This document shows, piece after piece, positions 3,684 to 17,975 of a stretch of 36,604 nucleotides of DNA; the stretch's first letter is position 1, and each line of letters opens with the position of its first letter. Both the position numbers and the translations under genes were made by a program. The stretch is from Candidatus Bipolaricaulota bacterium (GTDB taxonomy: Bacteria; Bipolaricaulota; Bipolaricaulia; UBA7950; UBA9294). The notes beneath the pieces are model-generated. The model was not told the DNA's origin and ran no database searches. It saw only the letters and a program-made list of their open reading frames with translations. The DNA is taken from NCBI GenBank assembly GCA_003979035.1, contig RXOA01000119.1, forward strand, positions 1 to 36,604. Reading direction: 5' to 3'.

Positions 3684-4676
3684 CTAGCCGTTCAGGGCCT
3701 GCCCGCCGCTTCCTGCCTGCTCCAGAAGCGCGCATGCAATCCGGCTGACGCCTTCCTGCACTGCTTTTCCGACCGCGCGCGGATCGAACGCCTTCTTGCT
3801 CGGACTCCACTCGCTCCCTGAGAATAAGTTGATGACATCGTCCTCGACGCCGGCCGGCGGCAGAATTTCGTGCTGGTGTTCGAGGTAGAACCGGCACGCG
3901 GCGCGACCATAGCCGTACTGGTAGTGTGTGTCCTTGTTCAGCTTCCGGATGCCGAAACGGATGACATCGTGGACCTGGTCCGCAAGGAGCCCTGACGAGC
4001 CGTGCAACACGAGTGGCACAAACATTCCCTCTTCGGCGAACCGATCCCGAATCGCGCCGGCAATATCCGTCCGCAGTTCAATGTTCCTTCCCTTGGAAAC
4101 CCCGTGCTGCGTTCCAATCGAAATCGCCAACAAGTCGGCGCCGGTGTCACGAATGAACTCCACCGCTTCTGCGGGATCCGTATAGAACGCTTCATCCGAC
4201 TGGATTTCGTCCTCAACGCCCTTAATCTTGCCGAGTTCCGCTTCGATCAGGATGCCGCTGCCGGACGCCAACTGCACGACGTCTCGACTGATGCGAACGT
4301 TCTCGTCAAAGCTTTCCTTCGAGGCATCGATCATGATGGAGGAAACCAGCCGTTCGTCGATCACCATCTCGATCAGGTCCATCTCGTCGTGTGTGAAATG
4401 GTCGAGATTGATGAACACGTTGATCGGAAACGCTTCCGCAAGCTCGTGCACAATCCCGCACAGTGTCCGCAGTCCGACGCGTTTGTCGCCGCTCCCCATG
4501 TACTTCGCCGCCCCGGGGCTGATCTGGACGACCAGATCCGATGTGGCATCGGCGTAGGTCTTCAGCAACGCAAGCAAGATCGTCGGCTCCGCGATATTGT
4601 TGGCCATGAACGCGAAGCCGTTCTTCTCCGCCTTCCGATACGCTTCGCGCAGGCTATCTCCTCCGGCAAATGGCAT
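3684..4676 (-). CDS. fba: Class II (zinc) fructose-/sedoheptulose-bisphosphate aldolase family
   Basis: This protein cleaves ketose-1,x-bisphosphates to DHAP plus an aldose phosphate. Family motifs are NLDHF (the first metal/active-site region), EAELGKIKGVEDE, SIGTQHG and LHGSSGL, which carry the zinc His residues and the phosphate-binding loop. I chose Met15 of the track ORF, because GGAGGTGGGG directly precedes that ATG and MPFAGGDSLREAY resembles the usual start of the family. This gives 330 aa, within the family range; the longer start at 4718 has no good ribosome-binding site. Fructose-, tagatose- and sedoheptulose-bisphosphate are all possible substrates from sequence alone. Its pairing with PFK inside a pentose operon hints at a C7 or C6 bisphosphate role. 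Confidence 0.9.
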   Translation of the reverse strand: MPFAGGDSLREAYRKAEKNGFAFMANNIAEPTILLALLKTYADATSDLVVQISPGAAKYMGSGDKRVGLRTLCGIVHELAEAFPINVFINLDHFTHDEMDLIEMVIDERLVSSIMIDASKESFDENVRISRDVVQLASGSGILIEAELGKIKGVEDEIQSDEAFYTDPAEAVEFIRDTGADLLAISIGTQHGVSKGRNIELRTDIAGAIRDRFAEEGMFVPLVLHGSSGLLADQVHDVIRFGIRKLNKDTHYQYGYGRAACRFYLEHQHEILPPAGVEDDVINLFSGSEWSPSKKAFDPRAVGKAVQEGVSRIACALLEQAGSGGQALNG

Positions 4677-4890
4677 CCCCCACCTCCGTGCGAAGATCCG
4701 GCCCTCCGCGCTGCTCATTCGAACAGCGGCAGTCTCCCGGACCCGTTCGCCATCCTCTCATCTCTCGAATGCGCCGATTCTTCCCGTACCCGCCGCGGCA
4801 GCCCAAGGTGCTCCGGCACAGGCGTGTCCTTACGCCATCCAACCGTGAATCGGACATCGTTGTCCTGTTCAATGAACGATCTGCCCTTGA
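4677..4890 (-). other. 214-bp gap inside the sugar operon with a doubtful 61-aa ORF
   Basis: A 61-codon minus-strand ORF (4715-4900) starts inside the end of the lyxose isomerase gene and stops at 4715. I see no domain and no ribosome-binding site worth the name, and its codons (many CGG, AGG and AGA) differ from those of its neighbours. It is more likely a leader or spacer before the strong aldolase ribosome-binding site than a gene. Confidence 0.3.
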
Positions 4891-5553
4891 TCATATCCAA
4901 CCGAGGTGCGAATCGTAGTCACTGACCAACAACCATCGGGGAGGCTCGTCTTCTTCGATGGTGGGGAAGCGCTTGGTATCTCCGACGAACTGGTTGTCGC
5001 CGACATCATCGTTGAACGTCGAGACTTCTCCCCCAATGACATCGCCTCCTTGGGCGCGGAAAGCATGGAACACTCCCGGCACGAGCGTCACGCTCTCGCC
5101 AGGACCAAGCATTAGCTCGCTACCCGAGGTCAGCACCTGCTTCATTCCATTGATGCAGAGTTGGATCTCGGAGGCGCCATCGGGGAACGCGCCAAGCGTC
5201 ACGATCAGCACACCCCCGCCACGATTGATGATGTCTTCAGTCTTGGCGTAGTGGGCGTGCAAAGGGGTACGTTGATCGCAACGAATCAGCATCAGCTTCT
5301 CCGCATACCCGGACGTGCCTATCCGTTTCATGTTGCGCAAGGTGAGAAGCACCAGTCCATCGGTGCGAAACCGACCCTTCCTCCATTCCGCCACGTCCCA
5401 TCCAAGGCGGGATTGCACAATCGGCAGCGCGGCCCGGCCCTGGTGCTCCCATTCCTCGCGGGACCAATCGGCAAATGGCGGCAACGCGATTCCCCTCGTC
5501 GCGAACAGGCACACTGTCTCCTCGATGATCGCATTGATTTGGGAGCGTCTCAT
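4891..5553 (-). CDS. D-lyxose ketol-isomerase (cupin)
   Basis: The protein is about 220 aa and resembles bacterial D-lyxose isomerases, which interconvert D-lyxose and D-xylulose (some also D-mannose and D-fructose). LHAHYAKTEDIINRGGG is the metal-binding cupin motif (H-x-H...E), and a second His lies in GVFHAF. The track ORF starts at 5601, but MRRSQINAIIEE matches the usual N-terminus of the family, so I place the start at 5553. A GGAGG lies 12 nt before it, slightly far. No ribosome-binding site precedes 5601. The gene follows xylulokinase by 80 bp, so its product, xylulose, would feed that kinase. An uncharacterised 214-bp gap separates it from the aldolase gene. Confidence 0.85.
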   Translation of the reverse strand: MRRSQINAIIEETVCLFATRGIALPPFADWSREEWEHQGRAALPIVQSRLGWDVAEWRKGRFRTDGLVLLTLRNMKRIGTSGYAEKLMLIRCDQRTPLHAHYAKTEDIINRGGGVLIVTLGAFPDGASEIQLCINGMKQVLTSGSELMLGPGESVTLVPGVFHAFRAQGGDVIGGEVSTFNDDVGDNQFVGDTKRFPTIEEDEPPRWLLVSDYDSHLGWI

Positions 5554-5633
5554 TCTCGAAGGCTGCCTCCAACAGATGCAGACAGCGTACCGCGTACACA
5601 TCGCCGACGCCAGTTCGTCGCAAACCGGACAGG

Positions 5634-7142
5634 TCAGTAGGATTCCGCGTAGCGGCTCAACTCATGGCTGATGTGTCGCAATGCTGGATACAGCTCTTTG
5701 TACAATGAGAAGACTTGCTCGTACCGCCCCGTTGATTCACGCTCGGGTTCGATCCTTCCTTTGACCTTGATGGTAGCGGAACAAGCCTCATCCACGGAGG
5801 CCCAGATCCCGGCGCCGACGCCGGCAAGGAGTGCCGTCCCGTAGGCCGCACCTTCCAACGTGTTGACAAGCACGAGCTCTCTTCCCAGCACGTCGGACAG
5901 AATCTGTCTCCAGCAAGAGCTTCGCGCGCCCCCACCCGAGATGCGAATCTCGCACGTCTTGTCCACGCCGGCGGCCGACAGCAGTTCCAGTCCTTCACGG
6001 AGACCGAAGCTGACACCCTCCAAGACGGCCCGTGCAAGCGCGGCGCGATCGTGCCGAACCGTCAGGCCGACAAATGCTCCGCGAGCCCGTGCATCGGCGT
6101 ACGGGGTTCTCTCCCCGGTCAAGTAGGGAAGAAACAGCAGTCCGTTGCTTCCGACGGGAACGTGGGATGCCTCGCGCGTCAGGACGTCGAAGCTTTCGGT
6201 CGGAACCAACTCATCACGGAACCAGCGGAGACTGCCGGCGGCAGACAGCATCACGCCCATGAGATGCCAGCGACCGGGCACAGCGTGACAGAACGCATGC
6301 AGGCGTCCTCCCGGCTCAACGATTGGCCGATCCGTTGGAGCGAAGACAACGCCGGATGTCCCAAGCGTCATCGCCAATGTGCCCGCATGCGACGCACCGA
6401 CACCAATCGCCTGAGCCGCCTGGTCTCCGGCGCCCGCGAAGACGGGAGTTCCTGCAGGAATCCCGGTCCACTTAGCGGCTTCCGGCGTGATGTGACCAGT
6501 CACCTCCGGTCCCTCGTGTGTCGGGGGAAGCCATGATTTCTCGATTCCGAACGCGCCCAGGATCGCCGTCGCCCAGTCCCGCTTGGCAATGTCCAGAATC
6601 AAGGTGCCTGAAGCGCCAGCGCGGTCGGTGGCGAATCGTCCCGTAAGCCGGAATCGCACGTAGTCTTTAGGGAGCAGGATCTGAGCAATCCGCGCATACG
6701 CATCTGGTTCGTTCTCCTTCACCCAAAGCAGCTTGGGCAGCGTGAACCCCGCCATTGCGTCGTTGCCCGTCAGCGCGAGCAGTTCGCTCCTTCCGAACAC
6801 ATCACGGATCTCGTCGCACTGCTCCTCGGTCCGCTGATCGTTCCAGAGGATTGCCGGCCGTACAACACGATGAGACTTGTCCAGCAACGTGAGCCCGTGC
6901 ATCTGCCCGGTCAAACCTACGCCGATAATGTCCCGGCCGTCGATGGCCGCTTCCGTCAGGACACGGCGCATGCTACGCCACGTTCCGTTCCACCAGTCGT
7001 CTGGATTCTGCTCAACCCACAGTGGCCGTGGCATATCCCACGAGTGCTGGGTCAGAGCGGATCCGACGACATGGCCGCGCTCGTCAACCACGATCGCCTT
7101 GACCCCGGTGGTAGAGACGTCAATACCAACCACGTAGCTCAT
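5634..7142 (-). CDS. xylB: Xylulokinase (FGGY carbohydrate kinase)
   Basis: This 502-aa cytoplasmic kinase forms D-xylulose-5-phosphate from D-xylulose and ATP. Evidence is the ATPase-fold start GIDVSTTGVKAIVVDE, the xylulokinase-specific GLTGQMHGLTLLD (about residues 77-89), ILWNDQRTEEQC, GAGDQAAQAIGVG, TLGTSGVVFAP and a C-terminal SGGGARSSCWRQILSDVLG segment that lines the nucleotide site. The length is the family norm and no motif is missing. It lies 32 bp downstream of the xylose isomerase gene and 80 bp upstream of the lyxose isomerase gene, between the two isomerases that would supply its substrate. The start ATG at 7142 is preceded by GAAAGGGGAAC. Confidence 0.96.
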   Translation of the reverse strand: MSYVVGIDVSTTGVKAIVVDERGHVVGSALTQHSWDMPRPLWVEQNPDDWWNGTWRSMRRVLTEAAIDGRDIIGVGLTGQMHGLTLLDKSHRVVRPAILWNDQRTEEQCDEIRDVFGRSELLALTGNDAMAGFTLPKLLWVKENEPDAYARIAQILLPKDYVRFRLTGRFATDRAGASGTLILDIAKRDWATAILGAFGIEKSWLPPTHEGPEVTGHITPEAAKWTGIPAGTPVFAGAGDQAAQAIGVGASHAGTLAMTLGTSGVVFAPTDRPIVEPGGRLHAFCHAVPGRWHLMGVMLSAAGSLRWFRDELVPTESFDVLTREASHVPVGSNGLLFLPYLTGERTPYADARARGAFVGLTVRHDRAALARAVLEGVSFGLREGLELLSAAGVDKTCEIRISGGGARSSCWRQILSDVLGRELVLVNTLEGAAYGTALLAGVGAGIWASVDEACSATIKVKGRIEPERESTGRYEQVFSLYKELYPALRHISHELSRYAESY

Positions 7143-7174
7143 TCGCCGTTCCCCTTTCCTTCTTGTCCAGATGA

Positions 7175-8344
7175 CTACCGAACTCCAAGAAGCAGTTCCA
7201 CGACCAACTGATCCAACTCCTCGTACGGCTGTCCCCGCAGGGCAAGGGCTGCACGATCGAAGCTGTGTTGCTTCAGACTCTCCGCCTTCTCGTCGGAATA
7301 TGTTCCCGTCCAGCGGGTGGTGTTTCCGTCATCCTCCGTGATCCGCGCAAGCAACGCCTGGATTCGCGTGTCGTCACGGAACGCGTCCGCTTTCTCCTTG
7401 AGGATCAGATAGGTCCGCATGCAACCCCGCGCAAACGCGCGCACGTCTTCAGCATCGGAGGTGCGCAGCGCGTGCGCGTCGAAGTGACGAGATCCGGAGT
7501 AACCCACGTCCTCCAGGAACTTCACCAAGAAGAACGCCTGCTTGACACTGTGGCAACCAAATCTCCAATCCTGATCGTAGCGTGGGCCATTTTGATCGTT
7601 GAGATCAATGTGGAACAGCTTCCCCGCATCCCAGGCTTGAGCGACAGCATGCATGAAATTCAGTCCCGCCATCTGCTCGTGCGCCACTTCCGGATTGACG
7701 CCAACCATCTCCGGATGGTCCAACGTAGAGATAAACCCGAGCATCGCGCCGGTCGTGGGGAGGTACAGGTCCCCTCGTGGTTCGTTCGGCTTGGCCTCGA
7801 GCGCGAAATTCATCCCGTACCCATGGCTGATGTTGTACTCGCATAGGAAGTTCAGGGCTTCTCGGAACCATCGCGATGCATCAAGCGGGTTCTTCCCTGC
7901 ATCCGTTTCCGTTCCCTCTCGTCCGCCCCAGAAGACGTAAACCTTGGCGCCAAGCTCAGCGCCGAGGTCTATCCCTCGCATTGCCTTCTGCAGCGCGTAG
8001 GCACGAACCTTCGGATCGTTGCTGGTGAACGCCCCATCTCGAAACACAGACTCGCTGTACAGGTCTGTCGTGGCCATCGGCACGCAGAGTCCTGTGTCTT
8101 CGAGCGCCCTCTTGAACGACGACACAATGCGCTCTCTCTCGCCGGATGTCGCGTCAATCGGGACAAGATCATTGTCGTGGAAGTTGACGCCGTATGCGCC
8201 AACATCGGCGAGCAGATGCACGATCTCAACTGGTGACAGCGCATCGCGCACGGGCTTCCCGAATGGATCTCTCCCCGTGTTTCCCACGGTCCACAAACCG
8301 AACGTGAACTTATGTTCCGGTCGCGGTTGATACCTGTCTGCCAT
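7175..8344 (-). CDS. xylA: Xylose isomerase, short (actinobacterial-type) class
   Basis: This enzyme interconverts D-xylose and D-xylulose. The protein (389 aa) resembles the short class I enzymes in length and in its start [18 protein letters not shown]. Catalytic and metal residues are visible: H56 and D59 in VNFHDND, E183 and K185 in [13 protein letters not shown]219 and H222 in NPEVAHEQM, then HIDLNDQ and RYDQDW, and a late Asp in HFDAH. The track start at 8350 is only one base from AAGGAG, whereas the second ATG at 8344 sits 7 nt from it, so I use 8344. It follows a dehydrogenase gene by 25 bp and precedes xylB by 32 bp, as expected of a co-transcribed pair. Confidence 0.96.
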
Positions 8345-8369
8345 GAGCATTCTCCTTGGTTGATTTCGG

Positions 8370-9566
8370 TTAGTACTGAATCGAGACTCGCTCGCCGCCG
8401 ACTGAAGAGGCGAGAATCGCGTCGCAAATCACTGCGCACTTGTAGCCGTCTTCGAAGGTGGCACCATACGGAGCCACGTCGGTATCGTTGGCGATCGAAT
8501 CCAACAGGTGATGGAGCGTATGGATGTGAGCATGCTCCCAGCCCAAATTGTGCCCGTGCGCCCACCACGCACTCATGTATGGGTGATTGCTTTCGGTGAC
8601 CGATACCGTACGGAATCCTTGTCCTTGCCCACGCTTGACATCGCAGATCTCCAATTCGTTCAGCCGCTCCAGGTTGAACCGCAGCGAACGCTTCGCGCCG
8701 TTGATCTCGAACGTGAGCCCGTTCTTGTGCCCACCGGCAAACCGTGTGGCTTCGTAGGTACCGATCGCGCCGTTCTCGAACCGAACAATCGCCTCGAATG
8801 CGTCATCAACATCCACAGGGACCACTTCTCCACCGCCGGGCTTGGTCCGCTGCTTGATGAATGTTTCCGTCGTGGCTGAAAGAGAAGCGGGCTCTCCGAC
8901 AAGGAATCGACTGAGATCGATGATGTGCGCCCCCAGATCACCGAGCGCACCCGACCCCGACACATCTCTGCTCAACCTCCAGACCCAAGGGAACCCCGGA
9001 TCCATGATCCATTCCTGAAGGTAGCGCGCGCGGAAGTGGTAGATTTCGCCGACTTCGCCGGCGTCGATCAATTCCTTCGCCAATCGCACCGCCGGGACGA
9101 ATCGATAGTTGAAGCTGCACAGGTGCTTCACGCCTGCGTCGCGAACCGCATTCCACATCCGCTTTGCTTCGCCAGCCGACCGCGCGAGCGGCTTCTCGCA
9201 TAGCACATGCTTGCCGGCCTTCGCAGCCTCGATACACGGCTCGGCGTGGAGGTTGTTGGGACCGCAGTTGTCAAGAAGCTCGATGGCCGGGTCGGCAATC
9301 AGCACGCGCCAGTCGCTTGTTGCTCGCCCATACTCGTACCGTCGTGCCGCTTCTTCCGCTGCTTCCTGTGGGACACCGCAAATACCGACAAGTTTCGCCT
9401 TCGCCGCCGGCGGCCAGAAGATGTACGGAATCTTTTTGTACGCGTTGGTGTGGGCCTTTCCCATGAACCCATACCCCAGCATTCCTACACCAATCTCCCT
9501 CCAGGAAGCATCTGACGCACCTGTTCCCTTCGAAAGGCTAACAAAGCCCACTTCCTTCTCTGTCAT
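8370..9566 (-). CDS. Gfo/Idh/MocA family oxidoreductase (first copy)
   Basis: This is a NAD(P)-dependent sugar or polyol dehydrogenase of 398 aa. The N-terminal Rossmann fold begins [24 protein letters not shown] is the family EKP motif, with the catalytic Lys. [19 protein letters not shown] carries the C-terminal domain Asp and His. The start was moved to 9566 because GGAGGTGTC-ATG precedes it; the track start at 9608 has none and lies in the intercistronic hairpin. It is clearly paralogous to the second copy at 10638-11795; both share the EKPLAR and GDLG(A/S)H blocks. The substrate cannot be read from sequence; oxidation at C1, C2 or C3 of a sugar or glycoside is possible. The adjacent TIM barrel and second dehydrogenase suggest an oxidation, isomerisation and reduction sequence. 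Confidence 0.9.
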
Positions 9567-9581
9567 GACACCTCCGGGAAA

Positions 9582-9611
9582 CCGGTGCTGGGATAGAGCT
9601 CCCAGCACCGG
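9582..9611 (-). terminator. Intercistronic hairpin between isomerase-like and dehydrogenase genes
   Basis: This is a perfect 12-bp stem, CCGGTGCTGGGA / TCCCAGCACCGG, with a 6-nt loop. It begins 11 bp after the isomerase-like stop codon and is followed on the minus strand by TTTCCC and then the ribosome-binding site of the dehydrogenase. The short T run suggests partial termination or protection of the upstream mRNA rather than a full stop. Confidence 0.6.
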
Positions 9612-9622
9612 CCGATTCGCTA

Positions 9623-10591
9623 CTAGCTACGATCAAACCACAATGCCGCAGGCTCTTCCCGAATGATGACACCATTGAGGAACCCCGCAGCTTTGTTCAA
9701 ACCCTCTTCAAGCGACATCTGATGATCCTCGTGCTCAATGCTGATCACGCCGTCGTACCCGATCTCCTTGAGGGTCCAGATGAACGCCCTCCAGAATTCC
9801 TCACCGTGTCCGTATCCGACTGTCTTGAAGTTCCAGCCACGACCTTCCGCACTGAGGTTCTTGGTCTCGAGAACTCCGAAACGCTCCGCAACACCCTTCT
9901 CTACGGCGCTATCCTTGGCATGGACGTGGAAGATGCACTCGCGAAGCTCGCGTGCCGCAAGGCAAGGGTCCATCCCTTGCCAGAAGAGGTGACTGGGATC
10001 GAAGTTCGATCCGATGGCCGGTCCCACCGCCTCCCGAAGCTTGAGAAGCCGCTCTGGATTGAACACTGCATCGCCAGGATGCATCTCTAGCGCGATCTTC
10101 TCCACGCCGCACTTCTTCGCATGCTTGGCAATCTCTTTCCAGGTTGGGATCAACTTTTCTTCCCACTGCCATTTCAACAGATCCGCGTAGTAGTCCGGCC
10201 ACGAACAGGTGACCCAATTGGGGCACTTCGCATCCTCGCTGTCTCCAGGGCAGCCTGCGAAGCCAACGACACAGTCCACACCGAGCTCGCCGCAAAGCTG
10301 CAATGCTTCTTTGAAATCCCGGGTATGCTGTTCCGAGATGCTCTTGTCCGGGTGAACAACGTTCCCATGGCAGCTCAAGGCACTAATCTCAACTCCGCGA
10401 CCTGCGATCAGTGACTTGAGCGCCTTCAGCTTTGACGGATCTGCAAGAAGCGCTCCAGGATCGCAATGTATCTTCGGGATGAACCCTCCTGTTCCCAGCT
10501 CGATCATGTCGAGGCTCAGATTGGAGAGAGCATTCAGTGCTTCCTCTAGAGAGCGGTCTGCGTACACTACCGTGAAGCAACCTAGTTTCAT
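9623..10591 (-). CDS. Sugar phosphate isomerase/epimerase-like TIM barrel (AP endonuclease family 2 fold)
   Basis: This 322-aa protein starts MKLGCFTVVYADRSLEEALN and has the metal-binding residues expected of xylose-isomerase-like TIM barrels: ALEMHPGD, NFDPSHLFWQG, IFHVHAKD and SIEHEDH near the C-terminus. Family members include IolE/IolI-type dehydratases and isomerases, 3-epimerases and enzymes acting on 3-keto-glycosides. The catalysed step here is unknown. It is flanked by two Gfo/Idh/MocA dehydrogenase genes, an arrangement often seen in inositol and keto-sugar pathways. The start at 10591 has AAAGGGG about 8 nt upstream. It contains no nuclease-specific feature, so a DNA repair role is unlikely. 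Confidence 0.85.
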   Translation of the reverse strand: MKLGCFTVVYADRSLEEALNALSNLSLDMIELGTGGFIPKIHCDPGALLADPSKLKALKSLIAGRGVEISALSCHGNVVHPDKSISEQHTRDFKEALQLCGELGVDCVVGFAGCPGDSEDAKCPNWVTCSWPDYYADLLKWQWEEKLIPTWKEIAKHAKKCGVEKIALEMHPGDAVFNPERLLKLREAVGPAIGSNFDPSHLFWQGMDPCLAARELRECIFHVHAKDSAVEKGVAERFGVLETKNLSAEGRGWNFKTVGYGHGEEFWRAFIWTLKEIGYDGVISIEHEDHQMSLEEGLNKAAGFLNGVIIREEPAALWFDRS

Positions 10592-10637
10592 TCTTCTGCC
10601 CCTTTCGTGTTGTATGTCCTCATCCAGATACCGTCGC

Positions 10638-11795
10638 TTAGCCTAGCGAGACCCATTCCCTGGTTTCCGCTGACTTCTGGATCGCGTCGCAAAGCATGTT
10701 GATCCTGAGCCCATCGCGGAAATTCGGATTCGCACTGCCGTCATTCTGAATCGCCTTCACCATCTCATACATCTGGACAGCGAACGTCTCACCGAACCCA
10801 ATCCCCATTCCTTGGATCGGCCACAGGGCCTCGCCGTAGGGATGATCAAATCCTCCCGTGAGAACCCGTGTGAATCCGCTGCGTTCATTCGGTGTATCGA
10901 AGGTAGAAAGAAGAACCTCGTTGGGGCGTTCCCAGTCGAAGAACACCGCGCCCTTCATTCCGTAGACCTCGAAATCGAAGTGGTTCTTCTTCCCCGAGGC
11001 CAGCCTGCTTGCCACAAGACTGCCTTGCGCGCCGTTCTCGAACTGCAGCAAGACATCGCAAATATCGTCGACGTCAACTTTCCCCATCTTGACAGCTCCG
11101 CCCTCCGCCTTGTGCCCCAGCCCCCCAGCTCCGATCGGACGCTCAGTAATGTGTGTGGAAAGCAGTCCTGCCACCTGAGAGATTTCGCCGACAAGGAATC
11201 GAGACATGTCAAGTACATGGGAGCCGAGATCCCCCAAGCTCCCGCTGCCTGCGATCTCCTTTCTGAAGCGCCAGCTCAACGCGCCAGTTGCGTCGAGACC
11301 CCAGTCCTGGACGAACGATCCTCGGAAGCCTACGATTTTTCCAAGTCGCCCTTCATCGATCCATCGCTTGATCAGCTGAACCGCAGGTGCTTTTCGGTAG
11401 TTGAATCCGATCCCGTGCTTCACCCCAGACCGCTCTGCGGCGTCGGCAATCTCTTTGGCTTCGGCGGCAGTCCGTGCAAGCGGCTTCTCACAGAAGATGT
11501 GTTTCCCGTTGGCGATCGTCTCCAGAGCGATCTCCCTGTGCATGTCATTCGGCACGCAAACGAAAACCAGATCAATCTGATCGCTGGAGACAAGCTTCCT
11601 CCAATCGTCGGTCCACTCTGGGATCGCCAATCGCTCTGCCGTTTCCCTCGCAAGCGAAGCATCCCTCTCCGCAATCATCCGCAGGTGGACGTCCTTCGTC
11701 TCTGCTGCGAAGAAAGTCTTCATCATGTGGTACCCGACGGTATGCGTTCTTCCGATGAGCCCCCCACCAACGATTCCGATGTTCACTCGTGCCAT
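10638..11795 (-). CDS. Gfo/Idh/MocA family oxidoreductase (second copy)
   Basis: This is a 385-aa NAD(P)-dependent dehydrogenase. It shows the Rossmann motif NIGIVGGGLIGRTHTVGY, the EKP motif in FCEKPLARTAAEAK, and GSLGDLGSHVLDMSRFLVG in the C-terminal domain. The start was moved from 11861 to 11795, where AAGGAGAGAGC-ATG gives a proper ribosome-binding site and MARVNIGIVGGG begins directly with the fold. It lies 72 bp after the permease gene, as the first catabolic gene behind the transporter, which suggests that it acts on the imported compound. Paralogy with the 8370-9566 gene suggests either two different oxidations or a forward and reverse pair. The substrate is not determined by sequence. 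Confidence 0.9.
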   Translation of the reverse strand: MARVNIGIVGGGLIGRTHTVGYHMMKTFFAAETKDVHLRMIAERDASLARETAERLAIPEWTDDWRKLVSSDQIDLVFVCVPNDMHREIALETIANGKHIFCEKPLARTAAEAKEIADAAERSGVKHGIGFNYRKAPAVQLIKRWIDEGRLGKIVGFRGSFVQDWGLDATGALSWRFRKEIAGSGSLGDLGSHVLDMSRFLVGEISQVAGLLSTHITERPIGAGGLGHKAEGGAVKMGKVDVDDICDVLLQFENGAQGSLVASRLASGKKNHFDFEVYGMKGAVFFDWERPNEVLLSTFDTPNERSGFTRVLTGGFDHPYGEALWPIQGMGIGFGETFAVQMYEMVKAIQNDGSANPNFRDGLRINMLCDAIQKSAETREWVSLG

Positions 11796-11867
11796 GCTCT
11801 CTCCTTTCTGTGCTCCAGGTTGCCGATCCTCGTGCTTTGCTTTGTGCCGCATCTCATGCAAGGCTCT

Positions 11868-12845
11868 CTAGCTTTGGATCCCTCGCAAACGATTGATGAC
11901 GACTGCTGTAAGAATCAGCAGCCCGTTCGCGAACTGGATGTAGTACCCTCCGATATTGGCAAGGACAAGGCCGTTTCGAATGACTCCGATGATCAGAACA
12001 CCGAGGACGGTTCCCAAGACCGTTCCGATTCCACCGTTCAGGCTGGTCCCCCCAATGATGACTGCCGCAATGATGGCCATCTCGTATCCAGATGCGATCG
12101 ATGGCTGTGCCACCCCGAGTCGAGCAATCAGCAGGACACCCCCAAGCGCACCCAACGCGCCTGCCAAGACGTACGTAAGCAACGTGACCTTCGCCGTCTG
12201 AACACCCGAGTAGCGGCTGGCAACCTCGTTTCCTCCAGTCGCATACAGCTGATAGCCAAACACCGTGTACCGCTGGATGAGATGAATCACGATGGCCACA
12301 GCCAGAAAGAAGACAATCGGGACGGGGACGACGCCACCGATCAACCCCTGTCCCAATGCCGTGAACGAGGAAGGAAGGTTCACGACAGGCAGTCCTTTCG
12401 TGATCATGAATGCAACCCCGCGCACGACGCTCATCATTCCGAGCGTCGTAATGATCGGTCCCAGTCGAATGCGAGTGATGATCAACCCGTTAACCAAACC
12501 GATGCCCATGCCTGCAACAATGGCGATGAGAACCGCCGGGAAAACGGGGACGCCACTCACCATAAGCAACGATACAAGGATCCCTGATAGCGCCATGTTC
12601 GACGCGATCGAGAGATCCAACCCTCCTGTGATCATGACAAGCATCATCCCGAGTGCGGCGATCCCTTCGAAAGAAACAGCCCTGAGAATGCTGAAGATGT
12701 TCCCCATTGAGAGGAAGTTCTTGGCCAGGAACGACAACGCGATCACGAGTACGATCAACGCCATCAGAACGCCAGTCTCCCGCCCTCGGAAGACCCGGAG
12801 TAGCGCTTTCTTGCTCGAGTTGGCCATCGATTGTCTCTTACTCAT
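11868..12845 (-). CDS. Sugar ABC transporter permease, RbsC/XylH type
   Basis: This integral inner-membrane subunit of a ribose-type importer has 325 aa and many hydrophobic helices. The family signatures are FEGIAALGMMLVMITGGLDLSIASNMALSG (read here in two pieces) and IIGGTSLNGGIGTVLGTVLG, the cytoplasmic coupling region. The start at 12845 (MSKRQSMANSS) overlaps the end of the ATPase gene by 8 bp and is preceded by GAGG and AGGGG. The longer track start at 12881 lies further inside the ATPase gene. The overlap indicates translational coupling of ATPase and permease. Only one permease gene is present, as expected for a homodimeric CUT2 transporter. Confidence 0.93.
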   Translation of the reverse strand: MSKRQSMANSSKKALLRVFRGRETGVLMALIVLVIALSFLAKNFLSMGNIFSILRAVSFEGIAALGMMLVMITGGLDLSIASNMALSGILVSLLMVSGVPVFPAVLIAIVAGMGIGLVNGLIITRIRLGPIITTLGMMSVVRGVAFMITKGLPVVNLPSSFTALGQGLIGGVVPVPIVFFLAVAIVIHLIQRYTVFGYQLYATGGNEVASRYSGVQTAKVTLLTYVLAGALGALGGVLLIARLGVAQPSIASGYEMAIIAAVIIGGTSLNGGIGTVLGTVLGVLIIGVIRNGLVLANIGGYYIQFANGLLILTAVVINRLRGIQS

Positions 12846-14382
12846 CGCCCCTAGCCTCCTCACGGACTCCGTTTCCCGCACTGCCTCCGGTATTCACTGC
12901 GCCTGTGATTGCATGCATGATTTCCTCTTGCGTAACCGCATCCGATTCGTACTCCCCTGTGATCCTGCCCTTGTACATCGTGATGATTCTGTTGCTAACC
13001 GATATCAACTCGGGCAGCTCACAAGATGTCATGACGCATGCCTTGCCTTCTCCTACAAGGTCGCGAAGGATGCCATGGATCTCGGACTTCGCGCCCACAT
13101 CGACTCCGCGCGTAGGATCATCCAACAGAAGCAGATGCGGATTGGTTACGAGCCATTTTGCCAGGACAACCTTCTGCTGATTCCCTCCGCTCAAGTAGTT
13201 CACAGCTTGCCAGGGTGAGTGAGATCGGATAGAGAGCATTTTGATCACTCTCTCACCAAGTTTTCGGATCGCATTGCGTTGTATGATCCGCTTCCTGCTG
13301 AGCGTGCGCAGAATGGTGATCGCCGTGTTCTCAGCCACCGATTGAATGAGGTTCAACCCCTCAACATGACGATCCACAGGGACATAGCCCAGGCCCGCCC
13401 CAATCGCATCTTTCGGCGTCCGGATCTCCATTTTCTTGCCGTCAATCAGCACAGTTCCCCGAACCTCGGATTCGAGACCGAAGAGGCCTTTCATGAGGTC
13501 GCTTGCGCCAGATCCCTGAAGGCCAGCAAGACCCAGGATCTCGCCCGGATAGACGGAAAGGGAGACGTCGGTGACCTTGTCGGAAACAGAGAAGCCGTCA
13601 ACTGCCAGTACCGGCTCAGTGTCAGCACTTCTCACGGGTGTTACTCTCTCGAACGCCTGCACATCATGGCCTGCCATCAGGGTGGCAACACGGGCAGGAG
13701 TGACCTCTTCGATGCTGCCGGTGAAAACATTGCTGCCGTCTCTTAGGATGGTGATCCGACTGGCAATTCGGAATACCTCATCGAGTTTGTGGGACACATA
13801 AACCACAGTGATATTCTGCTCTCGGAGCTTTGCAATGAGATCGAAGAAACTCTCCAGTTCCTGCAAAGCCAGAGCAGATGTGGGTTCATCCATAATGATG
13901 AGTTCGACGTTCATTGCTACGGCCTTGCAGATCTCCACGACTTGTCGTTCACCGATGGAGAGTCTGCTGAGCAGCTCATCAGGCTCTCTTTCCAAGCCGA
14001 ATTGCCTAAGAAGTGCCCTTGCTCTCTGATTCCGCTCTCCCCACATGAGAGGCCTCAGAGTTGTCTTCGAAAGCTCCGAAAGGTAGATGTTCTGCGCGAC
14101 TGTGAGGTTTGAGCACTGAGGGAAGTGCTGATGCACAACACCCACTCCTAGATTTCGAGCATCCAGCGGACTCCGGATGTCCGTGGCTTCCCCTTTCCAC
14201 AGGATCTCTCCATCATCTTTGCTCTCAATGCCAGCACATACCTTGATCAGTGTCGACTTGCCGGCTCCGTTCTCACCCACAAGAGCGTGGACACTGCCCG
14301 CCTCAACACCGAAGCTCACTCCCTTGAGTGCTTGCACCCCTGGGAATGTCTTCACGACGCCCTGTACTTCAAGTAGGTTCAC
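12838..14382 (-). CDS. Sugar ABC transporter ATP-binding protein, RbsA/XylG type (two fused ABC domains)
   Basis: This 514-aa protein powers the CUT2 importer. The first ABC half has an intact Walker A, GENGAGKST (residues 36-44), LSIGERQVVEICKA and IIMDEPTSAL. The second half has the degenerate Walker A GLQGSGASDLMKG typical of RbsA proteins, with LSGGNQQKVVLAKWL and LLLDDPTRGVDVG. The asymmetry is normal for the family. It lies 114 bp after the binding-protein gene, behind a hairpin, and overlaps the permease start by 8 bp. The substrate is probably an aldopentose or a related sugar, given xylA, xylB and the lyxose isomerase gene downstream; specificity resides in the binding protein. Confidence 0.95.
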   Translation of the reverse strand: MNLLEVQGVVKTFPGVQALKGVSFGVEAGSVHALVGENGAGKSTLIKVCAGIESKDDGEILWKGEATDIRSPLDARNLGVGVVHQHFPQCSNLTVAQNIYLSELSKTTLRPLMWGERNQRARALLRQFGLEREPDELLSRLSIGERQVVEICKAVAMNVELIIMDEPTSALALQELESFFDLIAKLREQNITVVYVSHKLDEVFRIASRITILRDGSNVFTGSIEEVTPARVATLMAGHDVQAFERVTPVRSADTEPVLAVDGFSVSDKVTDVSLSVYPGEILGLAGLQGSGASDLMKGLFGLESEVRGTVLIDGKKMEIRTPKDAIGAGLGYVPVDRHVEGLNLIQSVAENTAITILRTLSRKRIIQRNAIRKLGERVIKMLSIRSHSPWQAVNYLSGGNQQKVVLAKWLVTNPHLLLLDDPTRGVDVGAKSEIHGILRDLVGEGKACVMTSCELPELISVSNRIITMYKGRITGEYESDAVTQEEIMHAITGAVNTGGSAGNGVREEARGDE

Positions 14383-14496: not shown

Positions 14497-15483
14497 CTAT
14501 CCTTCCCATTCCGCCATCAAGTCGCGATAGTCGGAGACGCTGATGCTGTCGCCGCCCCCATCCGAAGTGATGATATCCATGCCTGAACTCAGCATCGTAA
14601 TCGGGTTCTCAGCGAGGTAGCCAGCAAGCGCAGGCGTCCTCAGGAGCGAGAACAGCATATTCACGCTGCCGTAGCCCATCTCGTAGAAGCGTTGTCCGAT
14701 GCATGCTTTGAGGATCCCCGCTTCGACATACTGAAGCGCGTTTTCAAGGGGATCCACGCCCACGCACAGCAACTCGCCATTCTGGACTCGTTCGTTCACG
14801 GTTGGCATCGAGCCCACATTCCCCCACCAGGGGAACCCGGTCGTTGTCGCCAAGCCGTCGATTTCGGGATTCGCCGCGATGTAGTTCTCCACAGCATCGA
14901 CTGCAAGTCCGATTTCGAGCGCTGTCGTGGTGAAGCGAGTGACGACTTCGATATTCGGGTATCCCGCAAACGTGTCCAGCATCCCTTCATATCGCGCGTC
15001 AAGGTTCGGGTGTCCGACGTAAACCTGGAAGATCGCAACCTTCCCTTCTCCACCCATCGCCTCGGCAAGCTGTGAAGCAACGAGCTGTCCGAGCTCGAAG
15101 TCAGGTGTTCCGTAATAGATAAGCCTCGGGCTGTCCGGGCAATCCGAATCCCAGGTCACTACGGGGATGCCCTTCTCCGCGGCCTGAACAAGGATCGGCC
15201 GCATCGCATCGGCACTGCTCACCGATACGGCAATCGCATCCACTCCGCGATTCAAGAGGTCCTCGACGACTCGAGCAGCCTCATAGCCCTCGTCGGAGAC
15301 CGGGCCCGTATAAATCAGGTCGATCCCAAGTTCTGCGGCTGCTGCCTCAGCGCCTGCCTTCGTCGCGAAGAACACAGGATTATCGAGCGCCTTCGGGACA
15401 ACCGCAATCTCGATATCCGCAGCCGCAGCCAAGATCCCCAAAGACATGATGCACAGCAGAACAACTCCAAGAGTCTTTCTCAT
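14497..15483 (-). CDS. Sugar ABC transporter substrate-binding protein, RbsB-like (periplasmic binding protein, peripla_BP_4 type)
   Basis: This exported binding protein of 328 aa has an N-terminal signal peptide, MRKTLGVVLLCIMSLGILAAAA, with likely cleavage after AAA. The Cys at position 11 is not in a lipobox, so it is not an obvious lipoprotein. The mature part reads IEIAVVPKALDNPVFFATKAG, then GVDAIAVSVSSADAM and VVTWDSDCPDSPRLIYYGT, the pattern of ribose/autoinducer-2-type binding proteins. The start was moved to 15483, preceded by AGGAGGGAACTTG; the track start at 15573 lacks a site and would hide the signal peptide. It is the first transporter gene after the repressor gene (136-bp gap). 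Confidence 0.93.
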   Translation of the reverse strand: MRKTLGVVLLCIMSLGILAAAADIEIAVVPKALDNPVFFATKAGAEAAAAELGIDLIYTGPVSDEGYEAARVVEDLLNRGVDAIAVSVSSADAMRPILVQAAEKGIPVVTWDSDCPDSPRLIYYGTPDFELGQLVASQLAEAMGGEGKVAIFQVYVGHPNLDARYEGMLDTFAGYPNIEVVTRFTTTALEIGLAVDAVENYIAANPEIDGLATTTGFPWWGNVGSMPTVNERVQNGELLCVGVDPLENALQYVEAGILKACIGQRFYEMGYGSVNMLFSLLRTPALAGYLAENPITMLSSGMDIITSDGGGDSISVSDYRDLMAEWEG

Positions 15484-15619
15484 CAAGTTCCCTCCTAGGT
15501 ATGCCCAATGCAAGTTGATGACCTTATTCCATCTCCTCTTCGTCGATGAACACTTCCATCTTCCTGCAACCACCTCCCTTGCTAGTGGAAAGGCAAGTCT
15601 GTACTCACAAGATCCATCC

Positions 15620-16624
15620 CTATGTCATTGGCGCACAACATGATTCCCGAATCATCAGTTCACACGGCAGCACAACTTGTTCGGCCTTGGACTCTCCTCT
15701 GGCAATCCGTTTCAGCAGAAGACCCATCGCCGTATAGCCCATCCTGTATTGATCCTGTGCAACAACGCTCAATGCCGGATTCCAGGATCGCGCCCATCCT
15801 GGGTCATCGAATCCCATGACCGACACATCCTCGGGGCACCTGAGCTTCGTCTCTTGCAGGTTCTTCAGGGCACCAAGGACCATGAGATTGTTGGTGGCGA
15901 AGACTGCTGTTGCCGGTTCGACTTGTTCCATCAGGTGGCGCATGGCTTCGAAGGCTCCCTCAACTTTAAGGCCCGCCTCCCAGATCAATCCATCATCGCA
16001 GGTAAGTCCAGCCGCCTCGTGGGCCTGCCTCCAACCACGGAGCCTATCGCGGAAGGTCGCGATGCCCTCCATCTCAACGATGATTCCGATTCTCGTGTGC
16101 CCAAGACTGATGAGATACTCAGTTGCCTGTCTCGCGCCTTCAATATTGTCGGAATACACTTGGTCAATCGGGAAATCGTCGAAGGGGCGATCTATCGCTA
16201 CAAAAGGAACTCCGCGATTCCGAAGTCGCCGCAACGTGCTTGCGGCAGCAGCAGATGGCGCGATTAGGAAGCCATCCACTCTTCGCTCAAGCATCAGTGA
16301 GACGCTGAGATTCTCCCTCTCAGGATCTTCATCCGTGTTACACAGAATGAGGCTATAGCCGCGCTCCCGTGCACAGTCTTCTGCTCCCCTTACAACGCCG
16401 GGGAAGAACGGGTTCGCGATGTCAGAGACCAAGACGGCGATTGTCTCCGACAGCCCTGTTCTCAGCCCTCTGGCGCGTTGATCCGGCTTGTAGTCCAGCT
16501 CGTCAATGGCCTGGCGTACACGCTGTGCCAGCTCTTCGCTGACATATCGTGTGTCATTGAGAACATGAGATACCGTAGTAATGGAAACGGCCGCCTTCTC
16601 AGCGACTTCACGCATCGTTGCCAA
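15620..16624 (-). CDS. LacI-family transcriptional repressor (first copy), TTG start
   Basis: This is a 334-aa repressor with an N-terminal helix-turn-helix (TMREVAEKAAVSITTVSHVLN), a hinge helix (KPDQRARGLRTG) whose Leu would enter the minor groove, and a periplasmic-binding-protein-like effector domain ending GFDDPGWARSWNPALSVVAQ. The track start at 16678 lies inside the operator array. GGAGG sits 6 nt before a TTG at 16624, which gives MATMREVAE, identical to the start of the second LacI paralogue, so TTG is the likely start; the ATG at 16615 is the alternative. It lies first in the sugar gene train, behind the promoter and four operator units, and so probably represses itself and the genes that follow. 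The effector is probably the imported sugar or a derivative. Confidence 0.92.
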   Translation of the reverse strand: MATMREVAEKAAVSITTVSHVLNDTRYVSEELAQRVRQAIDELDYKPDQRARGLRTGLSETIAVLVSDIANPFFPGVVRGAEDCARERGYSLILCNTDEDPERENLSVSLMLERRVDGFLIAPSAAAASTLRRLRNRGVPFVAIDRPFDDFPIDQVYSDNIEGARQATEYLISLGHTRIGIIVEMEGIATFRDRLRGWRQAHEAAGLTCDDGLIWEAGLKVEGAFEAMRHLMEQVEPATAVFATNNLMVLGALKNLQETKLRCPEDVSVMGFDDPGWARSWNPALSVVAQDQYRMGYTAMGLLLKRIARGESKAEQVVLPCELMIRESCCAPMT

Positions 16625-16662: not shown

Positions 16663-16710
16663 GGAAACCTTTGCGCAAACCTTAGCGCGAACGTTTGCGC
16701 AACCGTTTGC
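16663..16710. promoter_or_regulatory. Four abutting 12-bp LacI-type operator units
   Basis: The 48 bases divide exactly into GGAAACCTTTGC, GCAAACCTTAGC, GCGAACGTTTGC and GCAACCGTTTGC. Each matches the perfect palindrome GCAAACGTTTGC at 10, 10, 11 and 11 of 12 positions. A central CG or CC flanked by AA and TT is the usual LacI-family operator pattern. The array runs from the edge of the -10 box through the predicted transcription start toward the repressor's ribosome-binding site. Confidence 0.75.
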
Positions 16711-16738
16711 TTATAGCGCGAAAACTATGGAAAGTCAA
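16710..16738 (-). promoter_or_regulatory. Sigma-70-type promoter for the repressor and sugar operon
   Basis: On the minus strand TTGACT (16738-16733) and TATAAG (16715-16710) are separated by exactly 17 bp; each box matches consensus at five of six positions. The transcription start should fall near 16703, inside the fourth operator unit, leaving a leader of about 80 nt. I found no equally good promoter between 16624 and 2646. Confidence 0.75.
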
Positions 16739-16952: not shown

Positions 16953-17975
16953 TCAATCCAGGGAGAGCGGTGAGTCCGCGGCAGGCTGGCCGGTGGATTC
17001 CCGAATGCGAAGCTCGCAGAGGAGACAGATGGTCTTCGGGGGCGACGTGTCGCCCTTGATCCGCTCCAACAGCAGCTCGGTTGCCTTGTACCCCATCTCG
17101 TAGGGCTGCTGCGCAACTGACGTGATTGCCGGTGAGAAGGCACTTGCCCAGTCAGGATCGTCGAAGCCGATGACTGAAACCATTTGTGGGCAGCTGATTC
17201 CAGCATCTTTCAAGTATCGGAAGACTCCCAGCGTCATCAGGTTGTTCGTGCTGAAGATGGCGGAAACAGGATCACTCCCGGAGAGAAGCCGTTTCGCCGC
17301 AGCATAGGCACCCTCGACTTCAAGACCCGCCTGCCTGAGATCGCCAGTGTGTGGAGAAAGCCCCCCCTGCGCAAGCGCCTTCTTCCATCCGACGACTCGC
17401 GACCGAAAGCTGGGGATGTCTGCAATCTCCGCGACAATGCCGATTCGAGTGTGGCCAAGGTCGATCAAATGTTTCGTTGCCTCGTAGGCACCTCGTTCGT
17501 TCTCTGAGTAAACCTGATCCACAGGCAGGTCATCCGGACGGTCGATCAGAACCACGGGCGTACCATGACGGATGAGGTTCTCCAAAGCGTCGCTATCGCC
17601 AATTGATGGGGCGACGATGAATCCATCGACCCGACGCTCCAGCATCGTGGATAAGTTGACTCGTTCGGTCTCTGCGCTTTCGTCGGTGTTCGACAGAAGC
17701 ACACTATAGCCACTCTCCCGCGCGCAATCCTCGATGCCACGAACAACCTTAGGAAAGAACGGGTTGGAAATGTCCGAGACCAGGGCGGCAAGCGTCTCGG
17801 TGGAACCCGTTCGCAGACTCCTAGCACGCTGATCCGGACGGTACTCCAGCTTCCGGATTGCCTGACTGACGCGATCCGCGAGTTCCTCACTGACAAACCG
17901 TGTCTGGTTGATTACATGCGATACTGTCGTGATTGAAACACCCGCATACTCTGCGACTTCCCGCATCGTAGCCAT
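16953..17975 (-). CDS. LacI-family transcriptional regulator (second copy)
   Basis: This 340-aa protein is a close paralogue of the regulator at 15620-16624. The DNA-binding segment MATMREVAEYAGVSITTVSHVIN has the same recognition-helix core (SITTVSH), and the hinge reads RPDQRARSLRTG. The effector domain (SNPFFPKVVRGIEDCARESGYS, FDDPDWASAFSPAITSVAQQ) diverges more. The start was placed at the ATG 17975, 8 nt after AAGGTGG; the track start at 17987 is a GTG lying within that site. The gene ends 242 bp upstream of the first paralogue's promoter, so it is probably a separate unit. It may recognise the same operators but answer to a different sugar. Confidence 0.92.
   Translation of the reverse strand: MATMREVAEYAGVSITTVSHVINQTRFVSEELADRVSQAIRKLEYRPDQRARSLRTGSTETLAALVSDISNPFFPKVVRGIEDCARESGYSVLLSNTDESAETERVNLSTMLERRVDGFIVAPSIGDSDALENLIRHGTPVVLIDRPDDLPVDQVYSENERGAYEATKHLIDLGHTRIGIVAEIADIPSFRSRVVGWKKALAQGGLSPHTGDLRQAGLEVEGAYAAAKRLLSGSDPVSAIFSTNNLMTLGVFRYLKDAGISCPQMVSVIGFDDPDWASAFSPAITSVAQQPYEMGYKATELLLERIKGDTSPPKTICLLCELRIRESTGQPAADSPLSLD

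Follow-up and report, generated by a model that had tools for sequence, protein, structure and literature searches.

The promoter of a LacI/PurR-type repressor gene from the phylum Bipolaricaulota bears four palindromic 12-mers that abut exactly, and arrays of this kind recur at the promoters of related repressor genes with a spacing of 12 or 13 bp that is fixed by repressor clade. We interpret the 48-bp stretch as a close-packed operator array for the adjacent repressor, LacI-1, and on balance judge it likely that neighboring dimers would be bound to it simultaneously, in a clade-specific geometry. Overlapping LacI operators about 13 bp apart are already known (Ravcheev et al. 2014; Escherichia coli gntKU). 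What is added here is the exact 12-bp abutment, the presence of four units, the near-default use of such arrays by the PurR-like repressors of one phylum and the recognition of spacing as a repressor-clade trait.

Four abutting 12-mers across a predicted start site

The window, by which we mean the whole stretch of DNA analyzed, is a 36.6-kb contig of a metagenome-assembled genome that is 71% complete (Table 1). Positions 16663-16710 consist of four 12-mers with zero bases between them, which depart from the palindrome GCAAACGTTTGC by 1, 1, 2 and 2 mismatches; the array was also detected independently by TRF (period 12, 3.8 copies, indels 0%). The promoter TTGACT-17-TATAAG is directed leftward, toward the repressor gene and a sugar-ABC/catabolic operon. 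An automatic promoter scan that requires T at the final -10 position overlooked it. An earlier note on this DNA had described four exactly abutting units with at most two mismatches each, beginning at the last base of the -10 hexamer and covering the predicted start, and both parts of that description hold. To judge from the -10, transcription would begin inside unit 1.

Mismatches across the array sum to 6, whereas the best stretches in 20 Markov windows have 16-24. When repeat and palindrome character are scored jointly and without a consensus, the array reaches 60, compared with no more than 49 in any of 10 Markov windows and 48 in the rest of the window. A degenerate four-unit pattern gave one match in 100 Bipolaricaulota genomes and its reversed control none, the array in the window being the sole four-unit case among these genomes. 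Together these controls rule out chance or a simple repeat as the origin of the array. A scan of the genome for the motif, as the earlier note had proposed, revealed no enrichment beyond the array: a lone 12-mer has 61 matches in the window's genome versus 60 for the control, and a genome-wide regulon of the 12-mer was therefore dismissed.

The promoter-proximal units 1 and 2 have the canonical CG center, which is replaced by GG (CC on the plus strand) in the distal units 3 and 4. Since the canonical center is CG, the distal units are probably the weaker ones. GG centers in distal units were encountered twice, in units 3 and 4 of the window (16663-16686) and in unit 3 of a three-unit array of genome G014 (L019), and may represent deliberately weaker sites.

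Table 1. Features of the window on the minus strand; operator units are numbered and written in the order in which they would be transcribed
Feature	Position	Strand	Remarks
-35 hexamer TTGACT	16733..16738	-	spacer to -10 of 17 bp
-10 hexamer TATAAG	16710..16715	-	shares its last base with operator unit 1
Operator unit 1 GCAAACGGTTGC	16699..16710	-	CG center, 1 mismatch
Operator unit 2 GCAAACGTTCGC	16687..16698	-	CG center, 1 mismatch
Operator unit 3 GCTAAGGTTTGC	16675..16686	-	GG center, 2 mismatches
Operator unit 4 GCAAAGGTTTCC	16663..16674	-	GG center, 2 mismatches
lacI-2	16953..17975	-	paralog 58% identical to lacI-1; recognition helix TTVSHV
lacI-1	15620..16624	-	LacI/PurR/RbsR-type repressor; TTG start, GGAGG Shine-Dalgarno; recognition helix TTVSHV
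Sugar ABC solute-binding protein	14497..15573	-	47 bp downstream of lacI-1; opens the putative regulated operon
Sugar ABC ATPase	12838-14382	-	within 11868..14382
Sugar ABC permease	11868-12881	-	within 11868..14382
Catabolic genes	3684..11861	-	two Gfo/Idh dehydrogenases (levoglucosan-dehydrogenase-like), two sugar TIM-barrel proteins, FGGY kinase, D-lyxose-isomerase family, class II aldolase

Probable operators of the adjacent repressor

LacI-1 and LacI-2, whose gene sits just upstream on the same strand, have a recognition helix identical to that of E. coli PurR, and the solved structures closest to them are those of RbsR and PurR. E. coli PurR sites have a core in common with the units of the window (purR sites read GCAAACGTTTac/cc), and the E. 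coli purR gene itself bears AGGCAAACGTTTACCT and GAGCAAACGTTTCCAC. Units 1 and 2 display, with one mismatch each, the CG-centered even palindrome and AA..TT flanks of a PurR-type operator, and LacI-family genes with the matching helix adjoin the array. The helix encoded next door and the core common to the PurR sites thus support the earlier note's assignment of the units to LacI-family operators. In relatives the half-site covaries with the repressor group: GCAAAC accompanies TTVSHV, GTAAAC accompanies ATVSHV, CTAAAC accompanies ATVSYV and GGTAAC accompanies NTVSR. In family f6, three genomes have a two-unit 12-bp array at the lacI promoter and a second one at the promoter of the next (SBP-ABC) operon, which is homologous to the operon of the window; these second arrays, before the sugar ABC operon beside lacI, lie at L218:5594, L219:2168 and L225:6272.

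There is a strong case that the array comprises operators of the adjacent LacI/PurR-type repressor, which would repress its own gene. Given the helix match, the half-site covariation and the paired f6 arrays, autoregulation combined with control of the sugar operon is the natural reading. The lacI-1 product is the probable binder and the lacI-2 product a possible second one. An array was looked for at lacI-2 and none was found; the two repressors may share the one array. Of the two, LacI-2 is the nearer to the repressor of G014 that has an array (60% versus 51% for LacI-1).

Arrays recur in related genomes

Relatives have two or three units at the equivalent place, across the start site. When 90 upstream regions of LacI homologs in the class were surveyed, 36 contained an array, with two units in 30 and three units in 6. 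Measured from where a good -10 ends, the array begins at -5 to +4 bp in about 31 of the 36, behind TTGACA-like promoters. Intervals of 13 bp (n = 29) and 12 bp (n = 11) prevail in these arrays, and the single instances at 11 and 18 bp look spurious. The GG centers of units 3 and 4 cause the automatic chain rule to count only two units in the array of the window itself. A scan of the class with a three-unit pattern returned mostly coding noise apart from G014 and G034. Pairs spaced by 12 bp also occur in members from Chloroflexota and Rubrobacteraceae.

Arrays are conserved in orthologous promoters, being found upstream of 33 of the 40 proteins with a TVSH/Y/N-type helix. The contrast with the other helix type (1/39) arises in part artificially from the choice of core, because the NTVSR subgroup employs another one and yet has 12-bp arrays. 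TVSR-type repressors were for this reason rejected as a negative control: they appear array-free by the AANCGNTT core, but the distant NTVSR-helix subgroup (L139, L140, L143, L145, L147, L173 and L174) bears GGTAACGTTACC-type arrays at 12 bp. The two nearest homologs of LacI-1 (L017 and L018; 58-59% identity) have no array at lacI, and in both cases lacI comes after an ABC permease gene. Internal TGA stops suspected in the repressors of some relatives turned out to be ordinary C-terminal stop codons.

Spacing is a trait of the repressor clade

Pairs of AANCGNTT cores were sought in 100 genomes at spacings of 8-22 bp; 14 pairs are 12 bp apart and 30 are 13 bp apart, against a mean of 2.9 for every other spacing. 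A motif-free test with CG-centered palindromes produced the same peaks at 12 and 13 and no peak at 9-11 or 14. In a phylogeny of 40 repressors with 30 rows labelled by spacing, 12 and 13 bp are separated by one change, and the 13-bp rows, 17 in number, all group in one branch with 99% support. Every three-unit array keeps a single spacing throughout. The number of units differs between arrays, from 1 to 4, and the spacing stays fixed by clade all the same; spacing is thus under constraint and belongs to the repressor lineage. The distance between array and start codon ranges from 4 to ~80 bp, which indicates that indels are tolerated beside the array and not within it. Common promoter ancestry could explain part of the conservation of spacing. 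The earlier note had envisaged that one unit might be conserved in related genomes and the rest drift freely; where arrays are present, the units are instead in register, varying in number and fixed in spacing.

How are neighboring operators occupied?

The clade-bound spacing suggests that the geometry between neighbors matters, as mutually exclusive operators would be indifferent to one extra base pair, and its simplest explanation is that adjacent dimers are bound together. The earlier note had listed overlapping, mutually exclusive or register-shifting binding first among its suggestions. On such a scheme one dimer would occupy each neighboring pair, and extra units would add occupancy statistically and by local rebinding, without contact between dimers. 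A LacI dimer spans 16-20 bp and must overlap a neighbor 12 bp away, and a number of units ranging from 1 to 4 is what this scheme would allow; the weaker GG centers of the distal units in the window also fit it, and make a graded repression dial possible. However, other spacings should then be tolerated, whereas no feature is more conserved than spacing, which is just 12 or 13 bp and tracks the repressor clade; in addition, the middle unit of three-unit arrays equals the end units in quality. The half-sites point the same way, if less firmly. YG at positions 5-6 is present in 33 of 54 junction-facing half-sites and in 14 of 54 outer ones (p = 4e-4), a contrast that drops to p = 0.09 when the outer halves compared are those clear of promoter and start codon, both p-values being optimistic as the rows are related by descent. 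The better conservation of inner half-sites is thus only suggestive. Taking this evidence as a whole, we consider mutual exclusion unlikely, although it deserves serious attention.

Dimers might instead occupy alternate units, at distances of 24-26 bp, with the intervening units as spares. This arrangement agrees with the usual dimer size and with the ~22-bp pairs reported to be common in the LacI family (PMC4052901). It is nevertheless improbable, being inapplicable to two-unit arrays, the commonest form (30/36), and at odds with the lack of decay in the middle units of three-unit arrays. We find it very improbable that the true site is centered on the junctions (TTTGC|GCAAA), with the apparent units as its outer parts: the junctions of 12-bp arrays are indeed CG-centered too and the best-conserved part, but 13-bp arrays have a single-base junction center, and where related proteins have a lone site (L028, L042 and L130), it is unit-centered, as are the E. 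coli PurR sites. Finally, the palindromes could act as 5' hairpins in the transcript rather than on DNA, for a transcript starting within the array contains inverted repeats that could fold. This idea is scarcely credible, as the CG center, which would be a loop in RNA, is kept apart from the distal GG, and position +/-2 is often mismatched across the junction, so that RNA pairing is not maintained.

A model for repression by close-packed dimers

Simultaneous binding of adjacent dimers, the reading that we prefer, has to accommodate what is known of LacI/PurR-DNA structures, in which base contacts extend to ~7 bp from the center (PMC4052901). Neighbors at 12 bp consequently share contact zones, and side-by-side binding is not obvious; overlap is described as hard to square with structure by Ravcheev et al. 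(2014; PMC4052901). In our model each 12-mer would be a PurR-like site, with half-site GCAAAC and the hinge at its center. In the absence of the inducing sugar, dimers of LacI-1, possibly together with LacI-2, would fill the 48-bp array from the -10 to about +40 and exclude RNA polymerase from the promoter of lacI-1 and the sugar-uptake and catabolic genes; inducer would free them. Neighbors 12 bp apart here, and 13 bp apart in the sister clade, would most likely be bound at once in a geometry set by the clade. Contact between adjacent dimers would fall at the border of two units; to give them room, the DNA might be kinked and unwound step by step at each center, splaying the dimers apart. The depth of repression could be tuned by the number of units and the strength of the distal ones. 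Tentatively, we also entertain the more specific possibility that dimers held at once on abutting 12- or 13-bp operators, with a pitch particular to each clade, build a kinked repressor filament over the promoter. If so, the four units would specify the longest such filament among the arrays seen here.

Two dimers bind one overlapping site in a fixed geometry in the case of QacR and DtxR. These proteins have other folds and do not kink DNA through a hinge helix, and the resemblance is an analogy only.

Relation to known LacI-family operators

A literature search for overlapping or tandem LacI operators yielded one directly relevant source, PMC4052901. That study (Ravcheev et al. 2014) reports LacI-family intersite peaks at 13, 22 and 32 bp, with overlapping sites upstream of 110 operons and four-site groups at 5, and claims a role in repression for the overlapping GntR sites of E. 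coli gntKU; it offers overlapping pairs no explanation in terms of structure, and the parts of it considered here do not mention an effect of clade on spacing. We checked the E. coli gntK promoter, where the two sites are 13 bp apart (TGTTACC|GATAACAGTTACC|CGTAACAT); a preferred center distance of ~13 bp thus extends over the window (12), its relatives (12/13) and gntK. The arrays resemble such pairs in their CG-centered palindromes, fixed short spacing and overlap. They differ in the four units, exact 12-bp abutment and PurR-type half-sites of the window, in their near-default place over the start across the phylum and in the division of spacing by repressor clade.

With the E. coli PurR box and PurR-DNA complex the window shares the TTVSHV helix, the 12-bp core and, by inference, autoregulation, whereas in E. 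coli purR two single sites are separated by 88 bp and there is no packed array. The RafR and ScrR pairs, at 22 and 32 bp, likewise combine several operators with a preferred spacing and have been interpreted as cooperative binding (PMC4052901); they are non-overlapping and whole helical turns apart, and 12-13 bp is neither.

Since 2014 at the latest, overlapping operators ~13 bp apart have been on record, and no structural explanation has accompanied them. A phylum in which such arrays are usual, with two spacing classes in two repressor clades and 1-4 units, renders the question directly testable. LacI repressors are moreover standard parts in synthetic biology, to which a packed array of fixed pitch would add a new type of operator.

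The catabolic genes of the window are assigned to the putative operon from their strand and spacing. A D-lyxose-isomerase-family protein and an FGGY kinase are encoded near 8370-11861. Within 8370-11861 the two levoglucosan-dehydrogenase-like Gfo/Idh genes lie on either side of a sugar TIM-barrel gene.
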